Below are positions 16,503 to 37,067 of a stretch of 37,067 bases of DNA, piece by piece. The first letter of the stretch is position 1, and each line of letters opens with the position of its first letter. A program made the translations under genes and the position numbers. The notes beneath the pieces were generated by a model that was not told the DNA's origin, did not search any database, and was given only the letters and a program-made list of their open reading frames with translations. Source of the DNA: an uncultured Bacteroidota bacterium (GTDB lineage: Bacteria > Bacteroidota > Bacteroidia > Chitinophagales > Chitinophagaceae); contig CAIRZD010000046.1 of assembly GCA_903882965.1 (NCBI GenBank), forward strand, positions 1 through 37,067, given 5' to 3'.

Positions 16503-17318
16503 ATGCAACTACGCCTTAGAAATTTATTGTATTTATCTGCTGTTTTGATGCTGCTAAGCTCCTGCGGTGATTATGAAAAGATCCGCAAAAGCAGTGATGT
16601 GAACTATAAGCTCACAAAAGCTAATGAGTATTTTGATAACAAAAGCTACCAACACGCCAATGAGCTCTATAAAGAGCTTATGCCTGTAATGAAGAGCACA
16701 CGCAACTACGAAGCGCTCTTCTATAAATATGCCTATACGTTTTATTATCTTAAAGATTATGTAGAGGCTTCCTACTACTTTAAGAATTTCACCGAATACT
16801 TCCCCATCAGTAAAAATGCCGAAGAGTGTGAATATATGAGCGCTGTATGCCTTTATAAATATGCACCCAAATACACACTTGATCAAACCAATACTGTAAA
16901 AGCGCTTGAAGCTATGCAGTCATATGTAAATAAATATCCAAAGTCAACCAGAGTAGCGGATGCTAATACATATATAGACAATTCCCGCAAAAAGCTGGAA
17001 CTAAAACAAGCTGATGCGGCCAGGCTCTATTTTAACATAAGCCAGTACAAAGCAGCCGGTGTGGCATATAAAAGCGTGCTGCGCAACTATCCTGAGTCGC
17101 CAAGCGCTGACCTTTACCAATTTATGATCATGAAGTCGCTATGCAAGTATGCAAAGATCAGTATTCCCGAAAAACAGGAAGAACGATATGCCAGTGCAAT
17201 AAGCGCTTACAATGAATTAAAAGATACTTATCCAAAATCTCCGTATCTTGCAGACGCGGATAAGCTTTATAATGACGCAAACGATAAAATAAAAAAAATA
17301 CGCGATGAGCACAAATAG
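16503..17318 (+). CDS. bamD: Outer membrane assembly lipoprotein BamD
   Basis: TPR-type lipoprotein of the BAM complex, which inserts beta-barrel proteins into the outer membrane. The N-terminal signal peptide ends in a lipobox (LSSC, lipidated Cys21). The rest is made of helical tetratricopeptide-like repeats (for example ANEYFDNKSYQHANELYKE, then YVEASYYFKNFTEYFP), the YfiO/BamD pattern. Length 271 aa. I use the ATG at 16503; an upstream in-frame TTG (16491) overlaps the likely -7 promoter element and would spoil the signal peptide start. The 3' end overlaps rpoZ by 14 bases, a pairing I know from other Bacteroidetes. Confidence 0.93.
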   Translation: MQLRLRNLLYLSAVLMLLSSCGDYEKIRKSSDVNYKLTKANEYFDNKSYQHANELYKELMPVMKSTRNYEALFYKYAYTFYYLKDYVEASYYFKNFTEYFPISKNAEECEYMSAVCLYKYAPKYTLDQTNTVKALEAMQSYVNKYPKSTRVADANTYIDNSRKKLELKQADAARLYFNISQYKAAGVAYKSVLRNYPESPSADLYQFMIMKSLCKYAKISIPEKQEERYASAISAYNELKDTYPKSPYLADADKLYNDANDKIKKIRDEHK

Positions 17319-17625: not shown

Positions 17626-17657
17626 AGAATAAAAAACACCTAACGTTTTAACAAAAG

Positions 17658-17686
17658 AAACCGTCTTTTATAAAGACGGTTTTTTT
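17658..17686 (+). terminator. Rho-independent terminator after bamD-rpoZ
   Basis: An 11-bp stem (17658-17668 with 17672-17682) with core CCGTCTTT, a 3-base loop and a run of T immediately after. It is 32 bases past the rpoZ stop and ends the bamD-rpoZ transcript. The ~210 bases from here to the next gene are A/T-rich, without a coding signal. Confidence 0.9.
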
Positions 17687-17897
17687 GTGCTTATTGGTTA
17701 TGTGATTTTTATATGTGTGACTGTAAACATTTGCAAATAAAGATGTTGGGATGGCATATTATCTAATTTAAAAAATAAAAAGCACGCCTGATTAACCAGG
17801 AATTAATATTATTAAAAAATAACACCTTTTATTCAATCCTGAAAATATTTTTATATAGCTTTAAATCAATTTACCTCTAACAATAATACTGTTCTTT

Positions 17898-20800
17898 ATG
17901 AAAAAACAATTGCTACTCACCTTAGCTTTATTTTTATTCTGCGCTAATATAAACGCACAAATAAGTATCACCGATACCGGGCATTGTACAAGTACTACAC
18001 TTGCAGCTACACTTGTGGGGGAAACATCTATAAATGCAGGGATAGCCGTGGATGATATATACTCCGCTGCTTTGCCAATAGGATTTACATTCAATTTTTA
18101 TGGCACACCAGCTACAGGGCTCGTTATAGGAGACAATGGAAATCTTTCTTTTAACCTTTCGCTTGCCAGTTCTGCCGACCCATGGCAGATTTCCGCCCCA
18201 CTGTTAGGTAATACCAGTGTGCTTAATTGCATATGTGGCCCATGGTGCGATGTATTTGCTCTCGCTGGTGGTACAATTACCTATTCGACGGTAGGTGTCG
18301 CTCCTAATCGGAAATTTGTAGTTGATTATTGCCACGCCGACATGTATAACCCCACTGATTGTCCTGGGCAGTTTCTCACATCTGAGATAATTTTGTATGA
18401 AACAACAAATATTATTGAAGTTCATATCAGAAATCATACTGTATGCACCGGGTGGAATAGCGGTTTTGCAATTGTAGGTGTACAAAATGCAACCGGCACT
18501 GCTGCTACTGCAGCCCCGGGAAGAGATTTTCCTTCAACATGGACGGCTACAAATGAAGCCTGGCGTTTTACTCCTACCGGCTCTACTTCTTATTCCGTAT
18601 CATCAATAACTTATAGCCCGATACCTTATGCAGGCTCTACTATTATTTGGGTCAACACTACCACAGGTTTGGGTATTGGATCCGGCGCTTCAATTGTCGT
18701 TACACCTACAGTAACCACTACATATGAGGCATATGCAACAGGCTGCGATGATACAGCAAAAGCATTTATTACCGTATCACCCGGAAACGGCCCACCTATT
18801 ATGGGTACACCATCGGTATGCATTGGAGACACTACTAATTTAAGTGATGCGATGATTCCAGGTACGTGGAGCAGCAGCAATACGAGTGTTGCACAAGTGA
18901 CCTTTACAGGAAGAGTATGGGGCATAGCTGCTGGCACTACTACAATCTCGTATCAAATCGATTCAGTATGCACTTCCACGCTTGTAGTAACTGTTAACGC
19001 CACACCAACAGGAGGTATTATTATTGGTGCAAATAATGTATGTGTTGGGTCTACAATTACATTATCAGATACTGCCGGAACCGCGGGGGGTACCTGGACC
19101 GTTACTAACAGCCATGCTACTATTGGCAGCACTACCGGCATTGTGACCGGCATAACAAGTGGTGTCGACACTGCCAAATATACAATTACCAATTCATGCG
19201 GCACTGCAAGTGTTTTTAAGGTATTTACTGTCAATCCAATTCCGGCAGTTATATCCGGGACTCCTATTGTCTGCATAGGGCTAACAACGCCTTTATCTGA
19301 TGCCTCCGGAGGCGGTACATGGAGCAGCAGCAATACTGGTGTGGCAACTGTAACGTCAGGAGGTTTGGTCACCGGTGTTAGTGCAGGCACTGCAAATATT
19401 ACCTTTACAATTACATCATCCGGTTGTTACAAGACGCTCACAGTAACAGTAACGCCTACACCCTCTATTATACTCGGCACAAAAACAATTTGTCTTGGTG
19501 GCACAACTTCATTATCCGACACTGTAAGTGGAGGCACATGGTATAGCAATAATACTATAATTGCTACCGTAGGCTCATCTACAGGTATTGTCACCGGTCT
19601 TTCACTTGGCACTGCAACCATTGTTTATTATATAGGTACAAGTGCCTGCAGTCAAAATACAGTAGTTACAGTTGATCCAAACCCTACTGCAATTACAGGA
19701 ACAATGACTATGTGTATCGGACTTACAACTAATCTCACCGATGGCGTACCAGGCGGCACATGGAGCAGCAGTAATACTGGTGTTGCCACTGTTGGCACCG
19801 CTGGCCTGGTTACAGGAGTAAGCTCCGGCACTGCAAATATTACTTATCAAATTGGGGCGAGCTGTTATACTGTTGCTACAGTTACTGTCAATACAGCTCC
19901 GGCTATTATATCAGGCACAAAAACAATTTGTCTTGGAGGCACTACTACATTAACAGATTCTATAGGCGGCGGCACATGGAGCAGCAGTAACATAATTGTT
20001 GCTACTATTGGTTCGGGATCAGGTGTTGTAACCGGCAATGCATCCGGTACATCTACTATCACCTATACTATTGGAACAGGATGCTTTGTAACTACTATTG
20101 TTACCGTAAATGCAGGCACAGCACCTATTACCCCAGCAGGACCAGTGAACATTTGCCTTTTCGGAACAGCCTCGTTAAGTGATGCTACAACCGGAGGTAC
20201 CTGGAGCAGTTCAAATACTACCGTTGCGGTCATTGGCACTAATGGTATTGTTACAGGTCTTGCGATCGGAACAGCAAATATATCTTATATCCTTTCCTCT
20301 GGTTGTTATACGACAAAAACCGTTACTGTCAATACCTCTCCGACCATTATATCCGGCCCATCAACAATATGCTCCGGCGACACTGCCTATTTCAGTGACG
20401 CCACAACCGGTGGTACATGGTCTAGCAGTAATACGAGCGTGGCGGAGGTTTTGGGAGTATACGCATCCGGCGAAGGTGTTTTAGGAATATCCGCTGGTAC
20501 GGCAACTATTTCCTATATTATCGGCACCTGTTATGCCACTAAAAATATTACAGTGAATGCCAGCCCAACAGCAATTAATCCTAGCGCTGCAGTGAGTATT
20601 TGTCTTGGAGGAACTACAACATTGAGTGATGGTACAGGCGGCGGCACATGGAGCAGTTCCAGTAGTATTATTGCTTCAGTAGGGTCTGCCGGCCTTGTTA
20701 CCGGCCTTGAGGTAGGAACAACAAATATCTCCTACATTCTTCCTACAGGATGTTATGCTACAAAAACTGTTACTGTAAACACTGCCCCAACAGCTATTTT

Positions 20801-21962
20801 ACCTGCCAACCCACAAGTTTGTGTCGGTAGCACAATTACACTCACCGATGCCACGAGCGGTGGTGTATGGAGCAGCAGCGCAACAGGCACCGCAACCGTT
20901 TCGGGCGGTATAGTAACTGGTGTCGCAACAGGTACTGTAACAATTTCTTATGCTATCGGCACCTGCTATTCAACCACTACTGCTACCGTAAATCCAAACC
21001 CCACTGCAATCAACCCGGCAGGCTCTGTAAGTATTTGTCTTTTGGGCACAATATCATTAAGTGATGGCACTGCGGGTGGTACATGGAGCAGCTCCAATAC
21101 ACTTATTGCGGGTGTAGGTACTTCCGGTACTGTTACCGGCTCCGCGATCGGAACAGCAAATATCTCTTATATACTTCCCACAGGATGTTTTGTAACCAAA
21201 ACGGTTACTGTTAATAATGCACCTACTCCCATATCACCCGCTACAGCAACAGTATGCACCGGCAGTACTGTTACATTGTCAGACACTACATCTGGTGGCG
21301 TTTGGAGTAGCAGCACAACCGGCGTAGCTACTGTTTCAGGAGGGGTAGTTACTGGTATTGCAACAGGCACAGCCACTATTACTTATGCAATAGGGGCCTG
21401 CTATGCTACAGCCACCGTGAGTGTTGGCCCAAGCCCGGCAGCTATTACGCCGGTACCCGTTAGTATATGTCTTGGTGGCAACGCTACTTTAACTGATGCT
21501 ACAGGCGGTGGCGTATGGAGCAGCAGCAATGCAGGCATAGCATCAATTACATCGGGTGGTGTTGTTACCGGAAATGGAGTTGGTACAGCTACTATTTCTT
21601 ATACCGCCGCAGGATGTTCTGCAACTGCTATCGTTTCCGTAAACACGGCTCCTGGCTCTATTTTACCGAGCAACCCAACTGTGTGCGCAGGCAGTACAAT
21701 TACTTTAACAGATGCAACATCAGGTGGCATATGGAGCAGTGGCGGACCGGCTATTGCAACAGTTGTGGGTGGAGTAGTTACAGGTGTAGTTGCGGGCACT
21801 GCCAATATATCTTATTCTATAGGCTATTGCTCTTCTTTTACAACAGTTACGGTTAATGCTACTCCCGCTGCTATTACACCTACTCCGGTTACAGTATGCT
21901 TAGGCGGCACAGCTACTTTAACAGATGCAACAGCAGGTGGTGCATGGAGCAGCAGTGCTTAA
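17898..21962 (+). CDS. Giant Ig-like repeat surface protein, N-terminal part (ends at an in-frame TAA)
   Basis: Signal peptide MKKQLLLTLALFLFCANINA (1-20) is followed by a ~280-residue N-terminal beta-rich region. Its early part contains IGFTFNFYGTPATG and GDNGNLSFN, a pattern seen in secreted Bacteroidetes proteins. From ~residue 298 come tandem BIG2-type Ig-like repeats of about 74 residues. Each has a Cys-x-G-x-T-x-x-L-x-D opening, a GGxWSSS strand, a VTG turn and an ISYxIGxC closing strand. Fifteen repeats begin in this part, the last being broken by TAA at 21960-21962. The same frame continues to 26864 with the missing repeats and the secretion domain, so this 1354-residue product would lack its type IX sorting signal. 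The role is probably as a surface adhesin or filament (inference). Confidence 0.85.
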   Translation: MKKQLLLTLALFLFCANINAQISITDTGHCTSTTLAATLVGETSINAGIAVDDIYSAALPIGFTFNFYGTPATGLVIGDNGNLSFNLSLASSADPWQISAPLLGNTSVLNCICGPWCDVFALAGGTITYSTVGVAPNRKFVVDYCHADMYNPTDCPGQFLTSEIILYETTNIIEVHIRNHTVCTGWNSGFAIVGVQNATGTAATAAPGRDFPSTWTATNEAWRFTPTGSTSYSVSSITYSPIPYAGSTIIWVNTTTGLGIGSGASIVVTPTVTTTYEAYATGCDDTAKAFITVSPGNGPPIMGTPSVCIGDTTNLSDAMIPGTWSSSNTSVAQVTFTGRVWGIAAGTTTISYQIDSVCTSTLVVTVNATPTGGIIIGANNVCVGSTITLSDTAGTAGGTWTVTNSHATIGSTTGIVTGITSGVDTAKYTITNSCGTASVFKVFTVNPIPAVISGTPIVCIGLTTPLSDASGGGTWSSSNTGVATVTSGGLVTGVSAGTANITFTITSSGCYKTLTVTVTPTPSIILGTKTICLGGTTSLSDTVSGGTWYSNNTIIATVGSSTGIVTGLSLGTATIVYYIGTSACSQNTVVTVDPNPTAITGTMTMCIGLTTNLTDGVPGGTWSSSNTGVATVGTAGLVTGVSSGTANITYQIGASCYTVATVTVNTAPAIISGTKTICLGGTTTLTDSIGGGTWSSSNIIVATIGSGSGVVTGNASGTSTITYTIGTGCFVTTIVTVNAGTAPITPAGPVNICLFGTASLSDATTGGTWSSSNTTVAVIGTNGIVTGLAIGTANISYILSSGCYTTKTVTVNTSPTIISGPSTICSGDTAYFSDATTGGTWSSSNTSVAEVLGVYASGEGVLGISAGTATISYIIGTCYATKNITVNASPTAINPSAAVSICLGGTTTLSDGTGGGTWSSSSSIIASVGSAGLVTGLEVGTTNISYILPTGCYATKTVTVNTAPTAILPANPQVCVGSTITLTDATSGGVWSSSATGTATVSGGIVTGVATGTVTISYAIGTCYSTTTATVNPNPTAINPAGSVSICLLGTISLSDGTAGGTWSSSNTLIAGVGTSGTVTGSAIGTANISYILPTGCFVTKTVTVNNAPTPISPATATVCTGSTVTLSDTTSGGVWSSSTTGVATVSGGVVTGIATGTATITYAIGACYATATVSVGPSPAAITPVPVSICLGGNATLTDATGGGVWSSSNAGIASITSGGVVTGNGVGTATISYTAAGCSATAIVSVNTAPGSILPSNPTVCAGSTITLTDATSGGIWSSGGPAIATVVGGVVTGVVAGTANISYSIGYCSSFTTVTVNATPAAITPTPVTVCLGGTATLTDATAGGAWSSSA

Positions 21963-24900
21963 GGTATAGCCTCTGTTTCTGCAGGTGGTGTGGTTACAGG
22001 TAATACTGTAGGCACTGCTACTATTAAATATACTATTGCCGGTTGCTCTGCAAGTACAATTGCTACTGTAAACACTGCACCCGGATCTATACTGCCTGCT
22101 AACCCTACCGTATGTACCGGTGGAACAGTAACACTGTCAGATGCTACTTCTGGTGGCATATGGAGCAGCAGTACACCTGCTGTTGCAACAGTTTCCGGCG
22201 GTATTGTATCAGGCGTAACTGCCGGCACAGTCACTATATCTTATTCCATAGGCACCTGTTCTTCTACTACAACAGTTACAGTTAATGCCACGCCTTCCGC
22301 AATTAACCCTAGTCCGGTTACTGTTTGTCTTGGTGGCACAGCTACTTTAACAGATGCAACCGGTAGCGGCGCATGGAGCAGCAGCGCTTCTGGCATAGCT
22401 TCAATTACTGCCGGCGGTGTGATTACCGGAAATTCAGTTGGCACAGCTACTATATTATATACAATTGCAGGATGCTCTGCATCTACGGTTGCTACTGTAA
22501 ACACAGCCCCCGGCATAATATTACCGGCAAATCCACAAGTATGCACCGGCAGTTCAATTACTTTAACTGATGCAACATCAGGTGGTATATGGAGTAGCAG
22601 TGCTACAGGCACTGCTACTGTTTCAGGTGGTATTGTCACCGGTGTCACCGCAGGTATAGCTACTATATCTTATGCTATAGGCACTTGTTCTTCCACTACA
22701 ACAGTTACAGTTAACCCTACCCCATCTGCTATTAATCCTACCCCTGTAAGCGTTTGTGTTGGCAACAACATTACACTTACTGATGCAACCGGAGGTGGCG
22801 CATGGAGCAGTGTTGCCCCATCTGTAGCTACTATTTCGGCTGGCGGTGTTGTTACAGCTGTTTCTGGTGGTACTGCTACTATTTTATATACGGCAGGTGG
22901 TTGCTCAGCGGCAACAATTGTTTCTGTAAATACAACCCCGACTGCAATAACTCCTGCCGCACCAACTGTTTGCCTGGGCGGCTCTACCACATTATCTGAT
23001 GCGATCGGAGGAGGCATATGGAGCAGTAGCGCTACTGGTATTGCAACTATTTCTGCAACAGGGACTGTTACAGGAGTTGCTACCGGGGTATCTACTATTT
23101 CTTATACCATTGGCACATGTTTCATAACTACTACAATTACTGTGAATCCTGTACCTACAGCTATTAATCCTACTCCTGCTATTGTTTGCCAAGGTGGTAC
23201 TATTACATTAACAGATGCTACCGGTGGAGGTGCATGGAGCAGTAGCGCTACAGGTATTGCTTCCATAACTTCAGGTGGTGTTGTTACGGGCGTTACCTCA
23301 GGCACTGCTACTATTGCATACACAAATGGTTTTGGTTGCTCCGCAGCTACAATTGTTACTGTTACCACCCTTGGTTCGGCCGGAACAATTCTCGGGCCAT
23401 TAACTATCTGCCAGGGTTCATTTGATATTTACATTGATTATACACCCGGCGGTGTGTGGAGCATGAGTAGCGGAATAGGTGTCATTTCATCCGTTGGTGT
23501 TGTAGATGCACTTACCCCGGGAACAACTAATGTGATCTATACTGTTACGAATGTGTGTGGCTCTGTTTCAACAACAAAATCAATCACCATAGTGCCTGCC
23601 ACCACTGGTGCAGGAACAATTACCGGCCCGTCAAATGCCTGCGTAGGCTCTTCAATCACCTTATCTGATGCAACTGCACCCGGTGGCGACTGGACCAGCA
23701 CTAACGGCCATGCCAGTGTAGGTTCGTCTACAGGTATTGTTACAGGTATGTCTGCAGGCTTAGATACTATTATTTACACACTCACAACTGTATGCGGCAC
23801 CTATACCACCAGTGCTACAGTTAATGTGGATGCCACTGCTACCCCATCACCAATTTCGGGGCCTTCAACAGTTTGTGTTGCATCAAATATCACATTGTCT
23901 GATGCTGATGCCGGCGGTGCCTTTAGCAGCAGCAATGCACATGCCACCGTGGTACCGGGTACTGGAGTGGTTACCGGGATTACTCCGGGATTAGACACCA
24001 TTACCTATACCACATTTAATGGCTGCGGGCTTGGCACAACATCAAAGATCATTACTGTTATTCCTGCTGCTAGTGCAGGAACTATTTTAGGGCCATCGGC
24101 TGTTTGCCCCGGCTCTGTTATTCATTTGACAGATGCAACAGGTGGTGGTGCATGGAGCGCTACAAACGGCGATGCAACAATAAATGCTACCGGCCATGTT
24201 AGTGGTATAACAGCAGGCATAGATACTATTGCCTATACGATCACCGGTGCCTGCGGTACATCCAGCACAACGAAAACAGTCACCATCAATCCATTGCCAA
24301 ATGCAGGTACAATTCTTGGACCGGATAGTGTATGCCTTGGCTCAACAATTACATTGTCAGACCTTATCACAGGAGGTAACTGGAGCACAGGCAATAGTAA
24401 TGCTACAGTTAGTGCAACAGGTGTAGTTACAGCCGTTTCAATCGGAACTGATCCGATTTCTTACCCTATTACAAATACTTGCGGTACTACCTACACATCT
24501 AAGATCATCACCATTTCCACACTTGGTGACCCCGGTGTCATTACCGGCATCTCAAATGTATGTATCGGCTCTGCCATTACTTTAACTGATACTGCACCCG
24601 GTGGCATATGGCTCAGCAGCAATGGTACTGCCGCGCTTATTGGCCCGGGTATTGTTTCCGGTATTTCAACTGGTATTGATTCTATCTTCTATGTGGTCAT
24701 AAATGCTTGTGGAACAAATGAAGCCCGTAAGATCATCAACGTCAATCCTATCCCTATAGTACCGGCTATTACCGGGCCTACCAGCCAATGCAGCGGAACA
24801 ATTATCACACTTACTGATGGCATACCCGGCGGCGATTGGAGCAGCAGTGACCCAACTATTGCCAACGTTGGTATTACAACCGGAAACGTTACCGGAATAG

Positions 24901-26160
24901 CTGCCGGAATAGCAACAATTACTTATAGTGTAACAAATATTTTTGGTTGCGCAGCAAGTGTTACCTCACCTGATACTGTTAACCTGATTCCTTCCGTAAG
25001 CCCAATAACAGGCGCTACGAATATATGTCTTGGTGCAACTACAGCTTTAAATGATGCAAGCTCAGGAGGCATATGGAGCAGTAGCAACACATCAATAGCC
25101 ACAGTCGATGCATCAGGCAATGTAACAGGAACCGGTGCCGGTGTTGCCTCTATAAGCTACACTGTGTCAAACATGTGTGGCGCTACATCTGCTACATACG
25201 GGATAACAGTTAACCCGCTGCCTGTGATCGCAGCAATAGGTGGCAGTTCAAACGAATGTGTTGGGGCAACTACTACATTAACTAATACTACCGGCGGCGG
25301 CATCTGGAGCAGCAGTGATACTACTATTGCATCAATCAATTCTGCTACCGGAGCTATTACAGGTATAACACCGGGCATTGTAACCATCGTTTATTGGGTA
25401 AGCAATAGCTTTGGTTGTGCTTCTTCAGTTACAACTTCATTTACAGTTAACGCATTACCAGCTGTAGCAGCAATAACCGGTACAACAAATGAATGTATTG
25501 GCGCAACAAATGTCCTTGCAAATATTACGCTAGGCGGTACATGGTCAAGTAGCGATAATACTATTGCCACTATCGACCCTGTTGACGGGAAAGTACTAGG
25601 TATTGCAGGCGGGGTCGTAACTATTTTCTATACTATAACAAACGCAGCCGGATGTGCTGCAGCTGCAACTACTCCTGACACTGTTAATATAATGCCTGTT
25701 TCCTCTCCGATAATGGGTGCGGCCGGAGTTTGTCAATGGTCAACGACTACCTTATCAGATGCTGTTTCAGGAGGAGTATGGATTAGTACTGACAATACAA
25801 CAGCTACAATAGATCCGGTTACTGGCTTGGTTACCGGTGTTGCTACAGGCACAGACCTCATAATATATACCGTAATAAACAGCTGTGGCTCCGTATCTGA
25901 TTCTACAGCTATCACAGTTAACCCTGTTCCAATTGTTTCACCAATTACAGCCACCTATTCCACCGTATGCTCAGGCACATCAATTACATTGAGTGATGCC
26001 ACACCGGGTGGCTTATGGGTAAGCATTAATACTTCAATCGCTTCTGTAAGTTCTACCGGTGTAGTAACCGGCCTTTCTACAGGTACAGATACAATAATGT
26101 ATGCAATCACAAACAGCAGTGGCTGCTCCGGCGAAGCAACATATGTAGTTACAATAGCAC
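18790..26160 (+). repeat. Tandem array of ~33 Ig-like coding repeats (~223 bp each)
   Basis: I count 33 copies of the GGxW...VTG...TISY unit by eye across the two halves of the giant gene; the span divided by 33 gives ~223 bp (74 codons). Repeats ~9 to 21 alternate between two subtypes. One opens with LPANPxVCxGS; the other opens with NPxPVSVCLGG. This implies duplication of two-repeat (~445 bp) blocks. Repeats 22-33 are more diverged and longer. Such DNA is prone to recombination and to assembly collapse. Confidence 0.85.
21960..21962 (+). other. In-frame TAA interrupting the giant repeat gene
   Basis: The frame of 17898 runs unbroken to 26864 except for this one codon. Repeat 15 reads SSA-stop-GIAS where the sister repeat at ~22370-22410 reads SSASGIAS, with TCT at the matching codon. 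A single C-to-A change in a TCA serine codon would produce TAA. No frameshift is needed, and coding quality is equal on both sides. It may be a recent nonsense mutation, a sequencing or assembly error, or a recoded stop. Confidence 0.9.
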
Positions 26161-26864
26161 CGGCGCTCCCATCAATTGATATTACACCTGCCTCTGCAAC
26201 ACTTTGCCATGGCAATCCTGTGAATATGCATGTAAGCACTGCAGTTACCGGGATGTCATATCAATGGTTGCGCAACGGCAATATTATCCCCGGCGCTACA
26301 AATTCCGGTTATACTACTGATTCTGCCGACACCTATTCCCTGATTGTAAGTAATGGCACATGTAGTGAAACCCTTGCCGGAACAGTGGTATCTGCACAAC
26401 CACATCCTATTGTATCATTTACCGCACCTAATACCTTGTACACCGGTTCATTCTACGCTTACCAGTGGTATAAAAATGGAGTTTTGATACCCGGGGCTAC
26501 AAGCAGTGTTTTTGACGAATCAAGCAACGGGCTCTATTCAGTTGTTGTTACAGACATCAATGGCTGCACTGATACATCTTCCAGCTTTATGGTTACCGGT
26601 GGCGGCACCACGGGCATAGGTGCTACGCCTACAGTTACCGGTATCAGGATTTATCCGAACCCTGTTACCTCGGTGCTGTCTGTAGAAGCTGCTGAAAAAG
26701 TGAACGTACGATTACTCAGTATAGATGGCAAAGTACTGATCGAGCAGAAAGATGCAACAAGCATAGATGTAAGTATGTTGCCAAATGCACTCTACCTTAT
26801 CATGATCTACGATGAGAACAATTTATTATTGATGACCTCTAAATTTGTAAAAGCAGATCAATAG
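21963..26864 (+). CDS. Giant Ig-like repeat surface protein, C-terminal part with type IX sorting domain
   Basis: In-frame continuation of the upstream part; a separate start could only be the GTG at 21990, inside a repeat and with no signal peptide. It contains the rest of repeat 15 and repeats 16-33 (to ~26160). Two further Ig-like units follow with the pattern YQWxxNGxxIPGAT (at ~26260 and ~26460). The end is a ~75-residue type A Por/T9SS sorting domain: IYPNPV box, RLLSIDGKVL strand, LPNALYLIMI strand and the closing KFVKAD. The CTD would direct outer-membrane export and surface attachment, but only if joined to the upstream signal peptide. Whole gene: 2988 codons plus stop if the TAA is read through or is an error. 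Confidence 0.85.
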   Translation, partial: GIASVSAGGVVTGNTVGTATIKYTIAGCSASTIATVNTAPGSILPANPTVCTGGTVTLSDATSGGIWSSSTPAVATVSGGIVSGVTAGTVTISYSIGTCSSTTTVTVNATPSAINPSPVTVCLGGTATLTDATGSGAWSSSASGIASITAGGVITGNSVGTATILYTIAGCSASTVATVNTAPGIILPANPQVCTGSSITLTDATSGGIWSSSATGTATVSGGIVTGVTAGIATISYAIGTCSSTTTVTVNPTPSAINPTPVSVCVGNNITLTDATGGGAWSSVAPSVATISAGGVVTAVSGGTATILYTAGGCSAATIVSVNTTPTAITPAAPTVCLGGSTTLSDAIGGGIWSSSATGIATISATGTVTGVATGVSTISYTIGTCFITTTITVNPVPTAINPTPAIVCQGGTITLTDATGGGAWSSSATGIASITSGGVVTGVTSGTATIAYTNGFGCSAATIVTVTTLGSAGTILGPLTICQGSFDIYIDYTPGGVWSMSSGIGVISSVGVVDALTPGTTNVIYTVTNVCGSVSTTKSITIVPATTGAGTITGPSNACVGSSITLSDATAPGGDWTSTNGHASVGSSTGIVTGMSAGLDTIIYTLTTVCGTYTTSATVNVDATATPSPISGPSTVCVASNITLSDADAGGAFSSSNAHATVVPGTGVVTGITPGLDTITYTTFNGCGLGTTSKIITVIPAASAGTILGPSAVCPGSVIHLTDATGGGAWSATNGDATINATGHVSGITAGIDTIAYTITGACGTSSTTKTVTINPLPNAGTILGPDSVCLGSTITLSDLITGGNWSTGNSNATVSATGVVTAVSIGTDPISYPITNTCGTTYTSKIITISTLGDPGVITGISNVCIGSAITLTDTAPGGIWLSSNGTAALIGPGIVSGISTGIDSIFYVVINACGTNEARKIINVNPIPIVPAITGPTSQCSGTIITLTDGIPGGDWSSSDPTIANVGITTGNVTGIAAGIATITYSVTNIFGCAASVTSPDTVNLIPSVSPITGATNICLGATTALNDASSGGIWSSSNTSIATVDASGNVTGTGAGVASISYTVSNMCGATSATYGITVNPLPVIAAIGGSSNECVGATTTLTNTTGGGIWSSSDTTIASINSATGAITGITPGIVTIVYWVSNSFGCASSVTTSFTVNALPAVAAITGTTNECIGATNVLANITLGGTWSSSDNTIATIDPVDGKVLGIAGGVVTIFYTITNAAGCAAAATTPDTVNIMPVSSPIMGAAGVCQWSTTTLSDAVSGGVWISTDNTTATIDPVTGLVTGVATGTDLIIYTVINSCGSVSDSTAITVNPVPIVSPITATYSTVCSGTSITLSDATPGGLWVSINTSIASVSSTGVVTGLSTGTDTIMYAITNSSGCSGEATYVVTIAPALPSIDITPASATLCHGNPVNMHVSTAVTGMSYQWLRNGNIIPGATNSGYTTDSADTYSLIVSNGTCSETLAGTVVSAQPHPIVSFTAPNTLYTGSFYAYQWYKNGVLIPGATSSVFDESSNGLYSVVVTDINGCTDTSSSFMVTGGGTTGIGATPTVTGIRIYPNPVTSVLSVEAAEKVNVRLLSIDGKVLIEQKDATSIDVSMLPNALYLIMIYDENNLLLMTSKFVKADQ

Positions 26865-26878
26865 AGCCTCTTCTTGTT

Positions 26879-26919
26879 ATAAATAGAAATGCCCCGAAAA
26901 TCGGGGCATTTCTATTTAT
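26879..26919. terminator. Bidirectional terminator between the giant gene and bcp
   Basis: A 19-bp perfect inverted repeat (26879-26897 with 26901-26919) encloses a 3-base AAA loop. It lies 15 bases after the giant gene stop and 17 bases before the 3' end of the convergent bcp gene, so it serves both. T-rich tails are built into the outer stem on either strand. Confidence 0.9.
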
Positions 26920-26935
26920 AGTAACTAATATTATT

Positions 26936-33516: not shown

Positions 33517-33831
33517 CTATTTTACTTCTGCAACCAGTTTCTTGAAGGATTCCGGCTCGTTCATAGCCAGGTCAGCAAGTACTTTGCGGTTAAGATCGAT
33601 GCCTTTAGCAGCGAGCTTGCCAATGAACTGTGAATAGCTCATGCCTTCTTCACGTACTGCAGCGTTGATACGCACGATCCATAAAGAACGGTAATCGCGT
33701 TTCTTCAACTTACGGCCAACATACATATAGCCCTGACCTTTCTCTAATACGTTTTTGGCAACGGTATATACGTTTTTACGTTTACCATAGAAGCCTTTTG
33801 CTTCTTTCAGTATTTTCTTCCTTCTCGCGCG
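33517..33831 (-). CDS. rplT: Ribosomal protein L20, 5'-truncated at the chimeric join
   Basis: Binds 23S rRNA early in 50S assembly. The visible 104 residues run from [20 protein letters not shown] to the end [10 protein letters not shown] and match L20 closely. The usual first ~10 residues (MPRSVNxVAS type) and the start codon are missing: upstream of the serine at 33832-33834 the frame runs into GC-rich DNA of the xylanase gene. The expected upstream neighbours rpmI and infC are also absent. As L20 is normally essential, the break is best read as an assembly join rather than a real deletion. Confidence 0.93.
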
Positions 33832-33835
33832 TGAA
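33820..33835. other. Join between two unrelated genomes (probable assembly chimera)
   Basis: To the left lies Bacteroidetes DNA encoding rplT; to the right, without spacer, GC-rich DNA encoding the interior of a GH10 enzyme. Both genes run on the minus strand and both are cut here. The shared stretch around TCACGCGCGAGAAGG makes sense in both genes, so a short overlap could have joined two contigs. Confidence 0.85.
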
Positions 33836-34134
33836 ATCGGCTTGCAGCTGTTCGTCGGTGGTGTCGATGTCGTGTTCGGTGATGGAGATATCAAGCCCGA
33901 GCGCGGCGAAGCGGTCGAGGATCGCAAGCATCCGCTCGGGCGGCGTGGGCGTGCCGTCGAAGTGCGACTGCAGACCGAGACCGGTGATGGGCGCGCCGCG
34001 CTCTTTGAGAAAGCGGAGCGTCTGTTCGAAATGGTCCTGGTGATGCCCATCCGTGCCGCAGGCGGAGAGAATCGCGTAGTCATTCAGCGTGAGGCGCACG
34101 TTGGGGTCGTGCTGGCGCGCGAGCTTGAACCACG
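33832..34134 (-). pseudogene. GH10 endo-1,4-beta-xylanase, C-terminal piece in shifted frame
   Basis: Continuation of the xylanase gene after a 1-base deletion at 34133-34134. In this frame the catalytic barrel goes on as [18 protein letters not shown], then [10 protein letters not shown] and [10 protein letters not shown], where the Glu in ITEHD is the expected nucleophile. It stops making GH10 sense after QADFTRE because of the join to rplT, so the last barrel strands, including the usual late WGxxD motif, are missing. From its condition the fragment cannot encode an active enzyme in this assembly. Confidence 0.8.
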
Positions 34135-35286
34135 GGCCATTTCGTCTTTTCCCAGCAGGTCCATCACGTCGTGGTTGCTGTAAGGCTCGTTGATAACATC
34201 CCAGTCCGCGAGGCGGCCTTTCCAGGCGTCGACCTCGTCCGCGATGTGCGCGGTGATTCGCCGGCGGAGGGCTTCGGGGTTGTCCTTGAGCGTGATGACG
34301 TCACGCGGCATGTTGAGCCACGAGGGCCAGATGAGGTTGTGGCCGCGGATCTCAATGTTGCGCGTGCGCAGCCAGTCGGCGGCGCGAAGGGTGTTGGCGC
34401 GGTTGGCGGGGGTGTCCCAGACCGGCCATTTGAGGTCGTTTTCAAACACGACGCGCGTGAAGGTCTTTTCAACGACGGCACGGTAGCGGTCCCCGTCGGC
34501 ATCCTGCCGCAGCAGGTCCTTCGCTGTGACGGCGGAACCCCAGGCGAAGGCGTGGCGCCGCATGGACACGGTGATCCGGGCGCCGGGCACGGGGCGGCCC
34601 GCCGAGTCGGCAATAACGACCGTGAGGTCGCCCTTTCGCAGCTGCTCGATACGTGCGGCAGCGGCAGTGCGCCACGGCGCGTCGGGCGCCTGGCCCTCGT
34701 AGACGATCCGCGTGCGCGGGAGTTTCGCCATGTCGTACGTGGGGCCGAAAGAGTAGACTTCGAAATCGGCGATCTCGACAGTTTGAATCTGCGTGCCAAG
34801 GTGGAAACCGGCGCTGGCTTGGCCGGCCTCGTAGGCGCTGATGGATTTAAACGGCAGGAAATACTCGTTCCATTCACGGCCGAGGCCGAGATCGAAGCTG
34901 AGCGCCTTGTCGTAGGGCGGCCCGGCTTTCTCAAAGATCACGCCAACGCGGCCGCCGCCGGTTTCGTTCTTGGCGCTGAGCGTGCGGGCGTAGAAGCGCG
35001 CCCAGAGCACCTCGCCTTTCTGGACGTTGCGCGTGGTGCGGAACTGAAACTGGATGGCCCAGGGTGGGTCGGGGCGGGCGGCGACTTCGCAGCGCAGGGC
35101 CTCGGGAAAGGGCTGGCCCTCGACCGGCACGCGCATCAGCGTCCCGCAGGACGAGGCGGAGGGACTGCGCATTGTGGCAATCGCGTGCGGAGGAACGATC
35201 AGAACGCCGCCTTCCGGAGTCGGCGTGGCGGTGGCCAGAACGCCTGCGCATGTGAACCAAGCGAGCCAGGCGAAACGGAGCATCAT
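34084..35286 (-). CDS. GH10 endo-1,4-beta-xylanase, N-terminal piece (frameshifted)
   Basis: Secreted glycoside hydrolase that would cut xylan backbones. From the ATG at 35286 it starts MMLRFAWLAWFTCAGVLATA, a clear signal peptide. An AAGGA ribosome-binding site stands 5 bases upstream, so I reject the longer start at 35328. Residues ~25-190 form a jelly-roll, carbohydrate-binding-like domain. The GH10 barrel follows, with AFAWGSAV, FENDLKWP, RGHNLIWPSW and WDVINEPYS, whose Glu is the acid/base catalyst. The frame breaks at 34133-34134, leaving a false C-terminus. GC-rich codon use and the Shine-Dalgarno sequence differ sharply from the Bacteroidetes genes on the left. Confidence 0.88.
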   Translation of the reverse strand: MMLRFAWLAWFTCAGVLATATPTPEGGVLIVPPHAIATMRSPSASSCGTLMRVPVEGQPFPEALRCEVAARPDPPWAIQFQFRTTRNVQKGEVLWARFYARTLSAKNETGGGRVGVIFEKAGPPYDKALSFDLGLGREWNEYFLPFKSISAYEAGQASAGFHLGTQIQTVEIADFEVYSFGPTYDMAKLPRTRIVYEGQAPDAPWRTAAAARIEQLRKGDLTVVIADSAGRPVPGARITVSMRRHAFAWGSAVTAKDLLRQDADGDRYRAVVEKTFTRVVFENDLKWPVWDTPANRANTLRAADWLRTRNIEIRGHNLIWPSWLNMPRDVITLKDNPEALRRRITAHIADEVDAWKGRLADWDVINEPYSNHDVMDLLGKDEMARGSSSRASTTPTCASR

Positions 35287-35628
35287 AAACATCCTTGGGT
35301 GGAAAAGTGCGACAAAACAACCCCACATTCAATTTTTCAAAAACTGTAGCGGTTCTGGTCGATTCGGGCAAGGTTCCTGTGTTCCTCAAAGCCGCGGACC
35401 TGCTGAATCTCTGTACATCCGGGGCTACGACCCAGACGCCTTTTTCCAGCCTTCTCCTTGACACGTTCGACTCGATCTTCAATGCTTCGGGCGGTCGATT
35501 CTCGAACGGATTCGCCGGCTGCTGGCACTCGTTCCGCGAGTTCAAGGACGGCGTACGCGACTAGGTGCGCAACCACCTGGCGGGGGAATGATGCTATACT
35601 CGGCCCGTCTCGGGAAAGGCGATGGCCC
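35287..35628. other. Intergenic region between divergent xylanase and hydrolase genes
   Basis: About 340 bases with no convincing gene; several overlapping open frames on both strands (for example 35295-35564) have no recognisable domain and are expected in GC-rich DNA. It should hold the two divergent promoters. Confidence 0.5.
35592..35600 (+). promoter_or_regulatory. Extended -10 sigma-70 promoter for the SGNH hydrolase
   Basis: TGCTATACT is an extended -10 element (TGn plus TATACT) 28 bases before the hydrolase ATG. No TTGACA-like -35 is seen at 17 bases. It is an E. coli-like promoter, unlike the TAnnTTTG elements of the left part, again pointing to a different host. Confidence 0.4.
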
Positions 35629-36279
35629 ATGAAACTTGCCAAGGGAAGCAAACTGGTTGTGATCGGCGACTCCATTGCCGACGCCGGCCGGACAAAGGAA
35701 CCGGTTTCCGAGGGGCTGTTCGATCCACTCGGCCGCGGCTTCGTCACGCAGGTCGAAGCGCTGCTCGGCGCGACCTATCCCGAGCGTCGCATCCGCGTGG
35801 CAAACGTCGGTTGCAGCGGTCACACGGTGCGCGACCTGAAGGAACGCTGGGACCGCGACGTCCTGGCGATCCAGCCCGATTGGCTGGCAGTCCTGATTGG
35901 CATCAATGACGTCTGGCGGCAGTTCGACCTGCCGCGCATGAAGGAAACGCACGTGGGCCTTCGGGAGTACGAGCGCACGCTGGAGGAGCTGCTGCGGCGG
36001 ACGCGGCCGGGCCTGTCCGGGCTGGTCCTGATGACGCCGTACTTTATCGAGCCCAACCGCCGCGACCCCATGCGCCGGCGTATGGAGGCGTACGGCGCCG
36101 TGGTGAAACAGCTTGCGAAACGCCACGACGCCGTGCTGGTGGACCTGCAGGCCGCGTTCGACCGCATCCTCCGACGCCAGCATCCGGCCTCGCTGGCGTG
36201 GGACCGCATTCATCCCAACCAGACCGGGCATATGGTGATTACCCGCGCCTTCCTGACCGCCCTCGGATACCAGTGGTGA
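35629..36279 (+). CDS. SGNH/GDSL-family hydrolase
   Basis: Esterase/lipase-fold enzyme of 216 residues. The blocks are complete: GDSI with catalytic Ser15, glycine block near Gly64 (NVGCSGHT), GIND with Asn93, and DRIH with the Asp192/His195 pair. There is no signal peptide, so it probably acts in the cytoplasm. Members next to GH10 xylanases often remove acetyl groups from xylan or its fragments, which would suit this context, but that is inference. An in-frame extension to 35458 lacks family resemblance; the ATG at 35629 puts the first strand directly before GDS. The next gene begins one base after its stop. Confidence 0.92.
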   Translation: MKLAKGSKLVVIGDSIADAGRTKEPVSEGLFDPLGRGFVTQVEALLGATYPERRIRVANVGCSGHTVRDLKERWDRDVLAIQPDWLAVLIGINDVWRQFDLPRMKETHVGLREYERTLEELLRRTRPGLSGLVLMTPYFIEPNRRDPMRRRMEAYGAVVKQLAKRHDAVLVDLQAAFDRILRRQHPASLAWDRIHPNQTGHMVITRAFLTALGYQW

Positions 36280-36280
36280 T

Positions 36281-37067
36281 ATGTCCCTGCACCCGGACAG
36301 CAGGCTTACGCCAGAGATCGAGGACGAACTGCGCCGCGTGATCGACGCCGGGTCTGCCGACGACCTTGCGGCGCTGGCGCACACCGATCCCGCCTTCCAG
36401 GGCGGCGGGTTCCGCGCCAGCAACATGGCCGCGCTCCGCGCTCGTGCCTGCCAGCTGGCCACCGGTGCCGCGCCGGTTTCCGACGCGTTGCGCCGCCAGC
36501 TCGCGGCCCGGTCGCTCAACCGCCCGCTGGTCGGGCTCCTCTCCACTGGTGCCCTGGCAGACCTGCGCCACGAGCTGGCAGCGCGTTTCGGCGGCCCGCG
36601 GCTGCTGCTGGCCATGCTGGTGGACGAGCGCGCCGAGGTGCGCGAACTGGCCACGCGCTGGCTGCGGCAGGAACCGGTCTTCGTGGCGATCGATCCGGAA
36701 GCCGCGGCTACGCGCCTGCGCGAGGCGCTGGCCCGCCTGCTGGAGGGGGCCGGCACAGAGGCTGCTGCTGCTACGCCGGTCACACGCGAGGCGTGGCAGG
36801 ACGCGCGGGAGAACCTCGAGCAGCAGGTGCGCGACGTCCGCGTGGAAGCGCGGCGGCTGAAGGGTGTGGACGACCGCCTGGCGCGCAACCGAGAGCAGCT
36901 CGCCGCCTGCGAGCGCGAGCGGGACGAGGCACAGACACGCGCCACGGAAGCCGAGTCTCGGGCACGCGCCGCGATACGCGAACGCGAGGCCGCCCAGACT
37001 GAGCTGGCGCGAGAGCTGCGCCACCGCGAGGAGCGCCTGCTGGCGGCGGTGGAGACGCGCCTGGCCA
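36281..37067 (+). CDS. Coiled-coil protein of unknown function, runs off the window
   Basis: An open frame from ATG 36281 to the last base (262 codons, no stop). It begins one base after the SGNH hydrolase stop, so the two are probably translated together. The first ~165 residues are helical and Ala/Leu/Arg-rich, with repeated short helices that could be HEAT-like (MLVDERAEVRELATRWLRQEP). Residues ~170-262 form a strongly charged coiled coil of Arg/Glu/Ala heptads. I do not recognise the family; the missing C-terminus may hold the informative domain. Confidence 0.8.
   Translation, partial: MSLHPDSRLTPEIEDELRRVIDAGSADDLAALAHTDPAFQGGGFRASNMAALRARACQLATGAAPVSDALRRQLAARSLNRPLVGLLSTGALADLRHELAARFGGPRLLLAMLVDERAEVRELATRWLRQEPVFVAIDPEAAATRLREALARLLEGAGTEAAAATPVTREAWQDARENLEQQVRDVRVEARRLKGVDDRLARNREQLAACERERDEAQTRATEAESRARAAIREREAAQTELARELRHREERLLAAVETRLA

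Follow-up and report, generated by a model that had tools for sequence, protein, structure and literature searches.

A single in-frame TAA interrupts a reading frame that is best explained as a single gene encoding a giant surface protein of ~2990 residues, secreted by the type IX system and made up of a signal peptide, an N-terminal domain, an array of immunoglobulin (Ig)-like repeats, and a sorting tail. We favor the interpretation that this TAA marks a nonsense allele that arose very recently in a surface-protein gene that has many paralogues (probability roughly 0.55), with a base error in the assembly as a close rival. The gene lies within the window, the 37,067-nucleotide stretch of DNA analyzed here, which is contig C46 of a 508-contig draft metagenome-assembled genome (4.82 Mb, 95.3% complete, 2.6% contaminated). 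We refer to its product as an adhesin, a name based on anatomy alone.

Translation of the plus strand from 17898 to 26864 confirmed the first-pass annotation of a ~9-kb frame that is open except for one TAA (21960 to 21962, plus strand) in Ig repeat 15. The final stop is a TAG at 26862 to 26864. The upstream part comprises 1354 codons, and 1633 codons follow the internal TAA, or 1624 when counted from 21990, the first GTG past it. Based on the frame's own base composition, the chance of an open run is ~9e-32 for 1354 codons and ~5e-38 for 1624 codons, values that make chance an implausible explanation for the length of either half. On either side of the internal TAA, third-position GC is 0.318. 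The repeat listing of the gene places this TAA within the 15th Ig unit, a count that omits the first two listed rows, which belong to the N-terminal domain, and one doubled row. The earlier statement that the sister repeat carries serine at this codon is correct for the next same-phase repeat but not for the preceding same-phase repeat, which has alanine, or the directly following unit, which has proline.

The upstream part (17898 to 21962, plus strand) starts with a putative Sec signal peptide (17898 to 17963, plus strand), recognized by eye, and continues through the N-terminal domain (about residues 24 to 300 of the giant protein) and Ig-like (Big_2) repeats 1 to 15 to the TAA. The downstream part (21963 to 26864, plus strand) stays in the same frame and carries the rest of repeat 15, more Ig-like repeats, a type IX secretion C-terminal sorting domain (PF18962; 26649 to 26825, plus strand), and the TAG, directly after which lies a palindrome (26878 to 26920, plus strand) that is probably a transcription terminator. 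Big_2 (PF02368) matched both halves, at 152.9 and 133.5 bits relative to a Pfam cut-off of 22.8, and Por_Secre_tail (PF18962) matched the downstream half at 34.9 bits (cut-off of 27; 2e-8). The division proposed in the first-pass annotation, with the signal peptide upstream and the sorting domain downstream, therefore stands, with the signal-like start judged by eye. According to PMC12618676, a Sec signal peptide and a C-terminal sorting domain together define type IX substrates. The downstream part has the sorting domain, but the two elements do not occur on one polypeptide here, since the TAA separates them.

Three intact homologues are collinear with the gene across the stop, which implies that one continuous frame is ancestral. 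In the same genome, an open paralogue on contig C16 (L051:349-7809, 2486 amino acids) aligns with residues 818 to 2988 at 59% identity; homologues in two relatives (G013:C12 and G004:C25) are each 57% identical. Since all three frames are open at this position, looking for the same stop in related genomes, a check raised by the first-pass annotation, did not find it among these collinear homologues. Like the window gene, the C16 paralogue consists of an Ig-like array and a type IX sorting tail, although it differs in having a glycine-rich N-terminal region, an intact frame, and a TAA after the tail. A fourth homologue (G021:C100; L061, a 2208-codon frame) has the same N-terminal domain ahead of its Ig-like repeats (50% identity over residues 1 to 2119) but lacks an internal stop, and its last part falls outside the alignments listed. 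The intact collinear homologues (59%, 57%, and 57%), together with the equal third-position GC on both sides, argue for a young nonsense allele.

The N-terminal 300 residues matched sequences in 50 of the 60 relatives searched (E ≤ 0.001). The strongest of these matches were mostly in frames of ~830 to 1160 codons, and the weak ones included other repeat proteins. Named records with this domain came almost entirely from metagenome-assembled Bacteroidota (7 of the 80 kept loci were labeled Flavipsychrobacter), and none exceeded 58% identity in a search that may omit the window's own or very near records. Given that the N-terminal domain and the array with its tail are each matched elsewhere, the gene combines parts seen elsewhere. 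A literature search at the level of abstracts turned up no description of this gene, which does not prove that none exists.

The place between omega and bcp (window positions 17626 to 26935) is a variable site, occupied by the adhesin in the window and by no gene in seven relatives. In these 7 of 19 relatives' genomes, bamD, omega, and bcp lie together with 75 to 224 bases between omega and bcp; one of the 19 (G006; L048:389-1699) has a different 436-codon ORF at the site, and in 11 of the 19 omega was not seen in the examined flank around bcp. The gene names bamD, omega, bcp, and rpmI are partly presumptive, with Pfam supporting bamD (YfiO-like) and bcp (AhpC-TSA). The variability of this site is consistent with a young nonsense allele, as are the many Big_2 and sorting-tail matches in this genome (at least 146 and at least 150 scored, respectively).

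The TAA is the only lesion in the frame, which indicates that it is either young or not real. When random substitutions were simulated starting from this sequence, with free drift assumed and indels ignored, a second stop arose after a median of 39 substitutions (0.44% of sites) and in 95% of cases by 158 (1.8%). If the allele is real, as we infer, the gene carries one very young nonsense lesion in the sequenced population, and translation would end at the internal TAA. The resulting 1354-residue product would be expected to enter the periplasm but, lacking the required sorting tail, not to cross the outer membrane; the downstream part would have the tail but no signal peptide. Since signal and tail would reside on separate parts, this copy should yield no normal surface protein. 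The cell may tolerate such a lesion because its genome has many similar arrays, making the gene probably redundant.

Other arrays in the genome are broken in a comparable manner. Scanning Ig arrays for repeats that continue across a stop or a change of frame identified four breaks (two stops and two frameshifts) in 128 kb of arrays from the same genome (G000; 45 stretches, 35 arrays). Besides the window gene, these are an in-frame TGA that splits a giant Ig-repeat frame on C302 (L176:5539-5541; array L176:7-9738), a frameshift on C320 (L177, about 1819 to 1858), and a frameshift on C445 (L172, about 17172 to 17206; array on the minus strand). The C302 array resembles the window gene in being a giant Ig-repeat frame with one in-frame stop and the sorting tail on its downstream part, but it is another gene, its TGA falls in a conserved GGxW motif region, and it starts at a contig edge. 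The pieces flanking the breaks in this genome are open for hundreds to thousands of codons.

In seven relatives, by comparison, two breaks were found in 463 kb (69 stretches, 92 arrays). Both are in-frame stops in G013, a relative with about 30 contigs: a TGA at L238:12790-12792 (array on the minus strand) and a TAA at L241:8305-8307 (plus strand). The array stretches of G002, G004, G007, G010, G012, and G030 contained no breaks, nor did a further 27 kb from 80 loci in named records, which lie outside the 463 kb. The G013 arrays, like the window gene, are Ig-repeat frames each split by one in-frame stop, although they are other genes with stops at other positions in the repeat. These two further stops in a relative argue for a young nonsense allele and against a base error. 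The excess of breaks in the window's own genome (P = 0.023, binomial test on array length) is based on six events and fell to 3 versus 2 (P = 0.063) without the window gene, whose break had put it in the sample. The stretches were chosen from different searches in the two groups and cover part of each genome's arrays, so sampling differs between own genome and relatives.

These same data bear on the close rival, in which the real gene is intact and the TAA arose as a base error in the draft metagenome assembly. We assign this explanation a substantial, if lesser, probability. Breaks are commoner in this assembly than in its relatives, which could mean poor sequence: there are four of them, isolated and of mixed kinds, in the 128 kb of arrays, and the genome is a draft in 508 contigs. 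A single lesion is visible in each of the six broken arrays over the portion available, with those on C302 and C445 running up to a contig edge, whereas some of the six should show several if they were long-lived pseudogenes. Conversely, ~61 kb of non-adhesin sequence from the same assembly, compared with relatives, contained no convincing broken gene, which argues against base error only weakly because ~1.9 would be expected at the arrays' rate of 31 per Mb. Nine candidate rows, each with one supporting subject, emerged from this baseline, and we judged all of them spurious. Six on the window (17290, 17373, 31002, 33631, 33682, and 33745) lie inside open ORFs; three on L178 (499 to 655) fall within 160 bases, where the sole frame of at least 80 codons has 80 and reads on the opposite strand.

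The first-pass annotation had also raised an error in repetitive DNA. If this is taken to mean that repeats were collapsed, it is unlikely, since an exact-match search of the window and 44 other stretches of the same genome revealed no second copy of any word of ≥14 bases that spans the stop. None of the gene's 30-mers recurred in the own-genome stretches tested. Contig C130 shares with the gene a 24-base word (21933 to 21956) ending 3 bases short of the stop, an observation that favors base error; given that no shared word spans the stop itself, however, misjoining or repeat collapse is an unlikely origin of the TAA.

The contig does contain a demonstrable fault, in that its right end (33777 to 37067) is a false join. 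GC content shifts from 0.419 to 0.667 at about 33,834, where a ribosomal protein L20 gene (PF00453) is joined to foreign-looking, high-GC DNA carrying a GH10-like ORF (34084 to 35328). The L20 part was matched in 31 of the 34 other genomes of the genus, and all 31 matches start at query position 147, which corresponds to window position 33834. Moreover, the 58 bases from 33777 to 33834 (minus strand), at the edge of the join and outside the gene, match exactly the final 58 bases of C278, another contig in this assembly, which holds the L20 start and, upstream of it, a frame that we take to be L35. The shift in GC, the common match edge, and the C278 overlap together identify the false join. 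It leaves the adhesin gene untouched but means that the draft contains errors, and a chimeric contig with a false join at about 33.83 kb counts in favor of base error and against a real allele; on the other hand, a join is another kind of fault and lies ~12 kb away from the TAA.

A restart at GTG 21990, making the downstream part a gene of its own, is very unlikely. This GTG lies 27 bases past the stop, behind GGTGGT, and the exact GGTGGTGTG is unique within the gene. The looser pattern GGnGGnGT[G/T], however, occurs seven times in the gene, such that the context of the GTG is close to ordinary repeat sequence. The start would also fall in the middle of an Ig unit, no signal peptide was apparent by eye, and the ancestral frame runs through the position of the stop.

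Programmed readthrough or recoding of the TAA, giving two product sizes, is less probable still. Open reading frame extends to either side of the stop, and the RNA around it folds slightly better than shuffled sequences (z = -1.81; 13 of 200 as good), a weak point in favor. Nevertheless, TAA is an ordinary terminator in this genome: it ends 9 of the 17 other ORFs checked in the window and, right behind the sorting tail, the C16 paralogue, and such normal usage had been named in the first-pass annotation as an argument against recoding. Among 35 tRNA matches in this 95.3% complete genome, 33 had a readable three-base anticodon, none of them UUA, CUA, or UCA. The other breaks in the genome comprise one TGA and two frameshifts, which one recoding cannot explain, and the three collinear homologues have no stop at this position. 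Thus, neither a stop kept in these homologues, nor a stop-reading tRNA among the readable matches, nor abnormal use of TAA was found. Of the options listed in the first-pass annotation, a recent nonsense mutation and a sequence error remain, whereas neither terminator use nor the tRNAs, the homologues, or the mix of lesions lends support to readthrough or recoding.

The two unreadable tRNA matches are a tRNA-like gene on C252 (Rfam, 52.1 bits) with an odd anticodon arm and a weak match on C10 (31.4 bits). As judged by eye, a UUA anticodon does not seem to fit the loop of the C252 gene, and we set this gene aside as a suppressor. This gene (L164:1501-1584, minus strand; G000:C252) lies near small ORFs and an ORF that we presume to be resolvase-like. 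Among the matches listed in the other 34 genomes of the genus, those to a 201-base stretch of C252 were short (up to 41 bases). The C252 stretch may represent mobile-element or phage DNA in the bin.

Returning to the young nonsense allele, the finding as it stands matters little: what is broken is a single gene in a draft genome that has many like it, and the lesion is ordinary whether it is an allele or an error. It does advise caution, in that a clean single in-frame stop in a giant metagenome-assembled gene does not constitute evidence for recoding. Should the lesions prove both real and recurrent, they would suggest that this group of Bacteroidota gains and loses surface proteins rapidly. 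A broader proposal, which we consider improbable, is that the giant type IX-secreted repeat proteins of the genus are switched off singly by young stops or frameshifts and that the window gene has been caught in the off state. If true, the surface proteins displayed by each cell line would be a shifting selection from a large, redundant repertoire.
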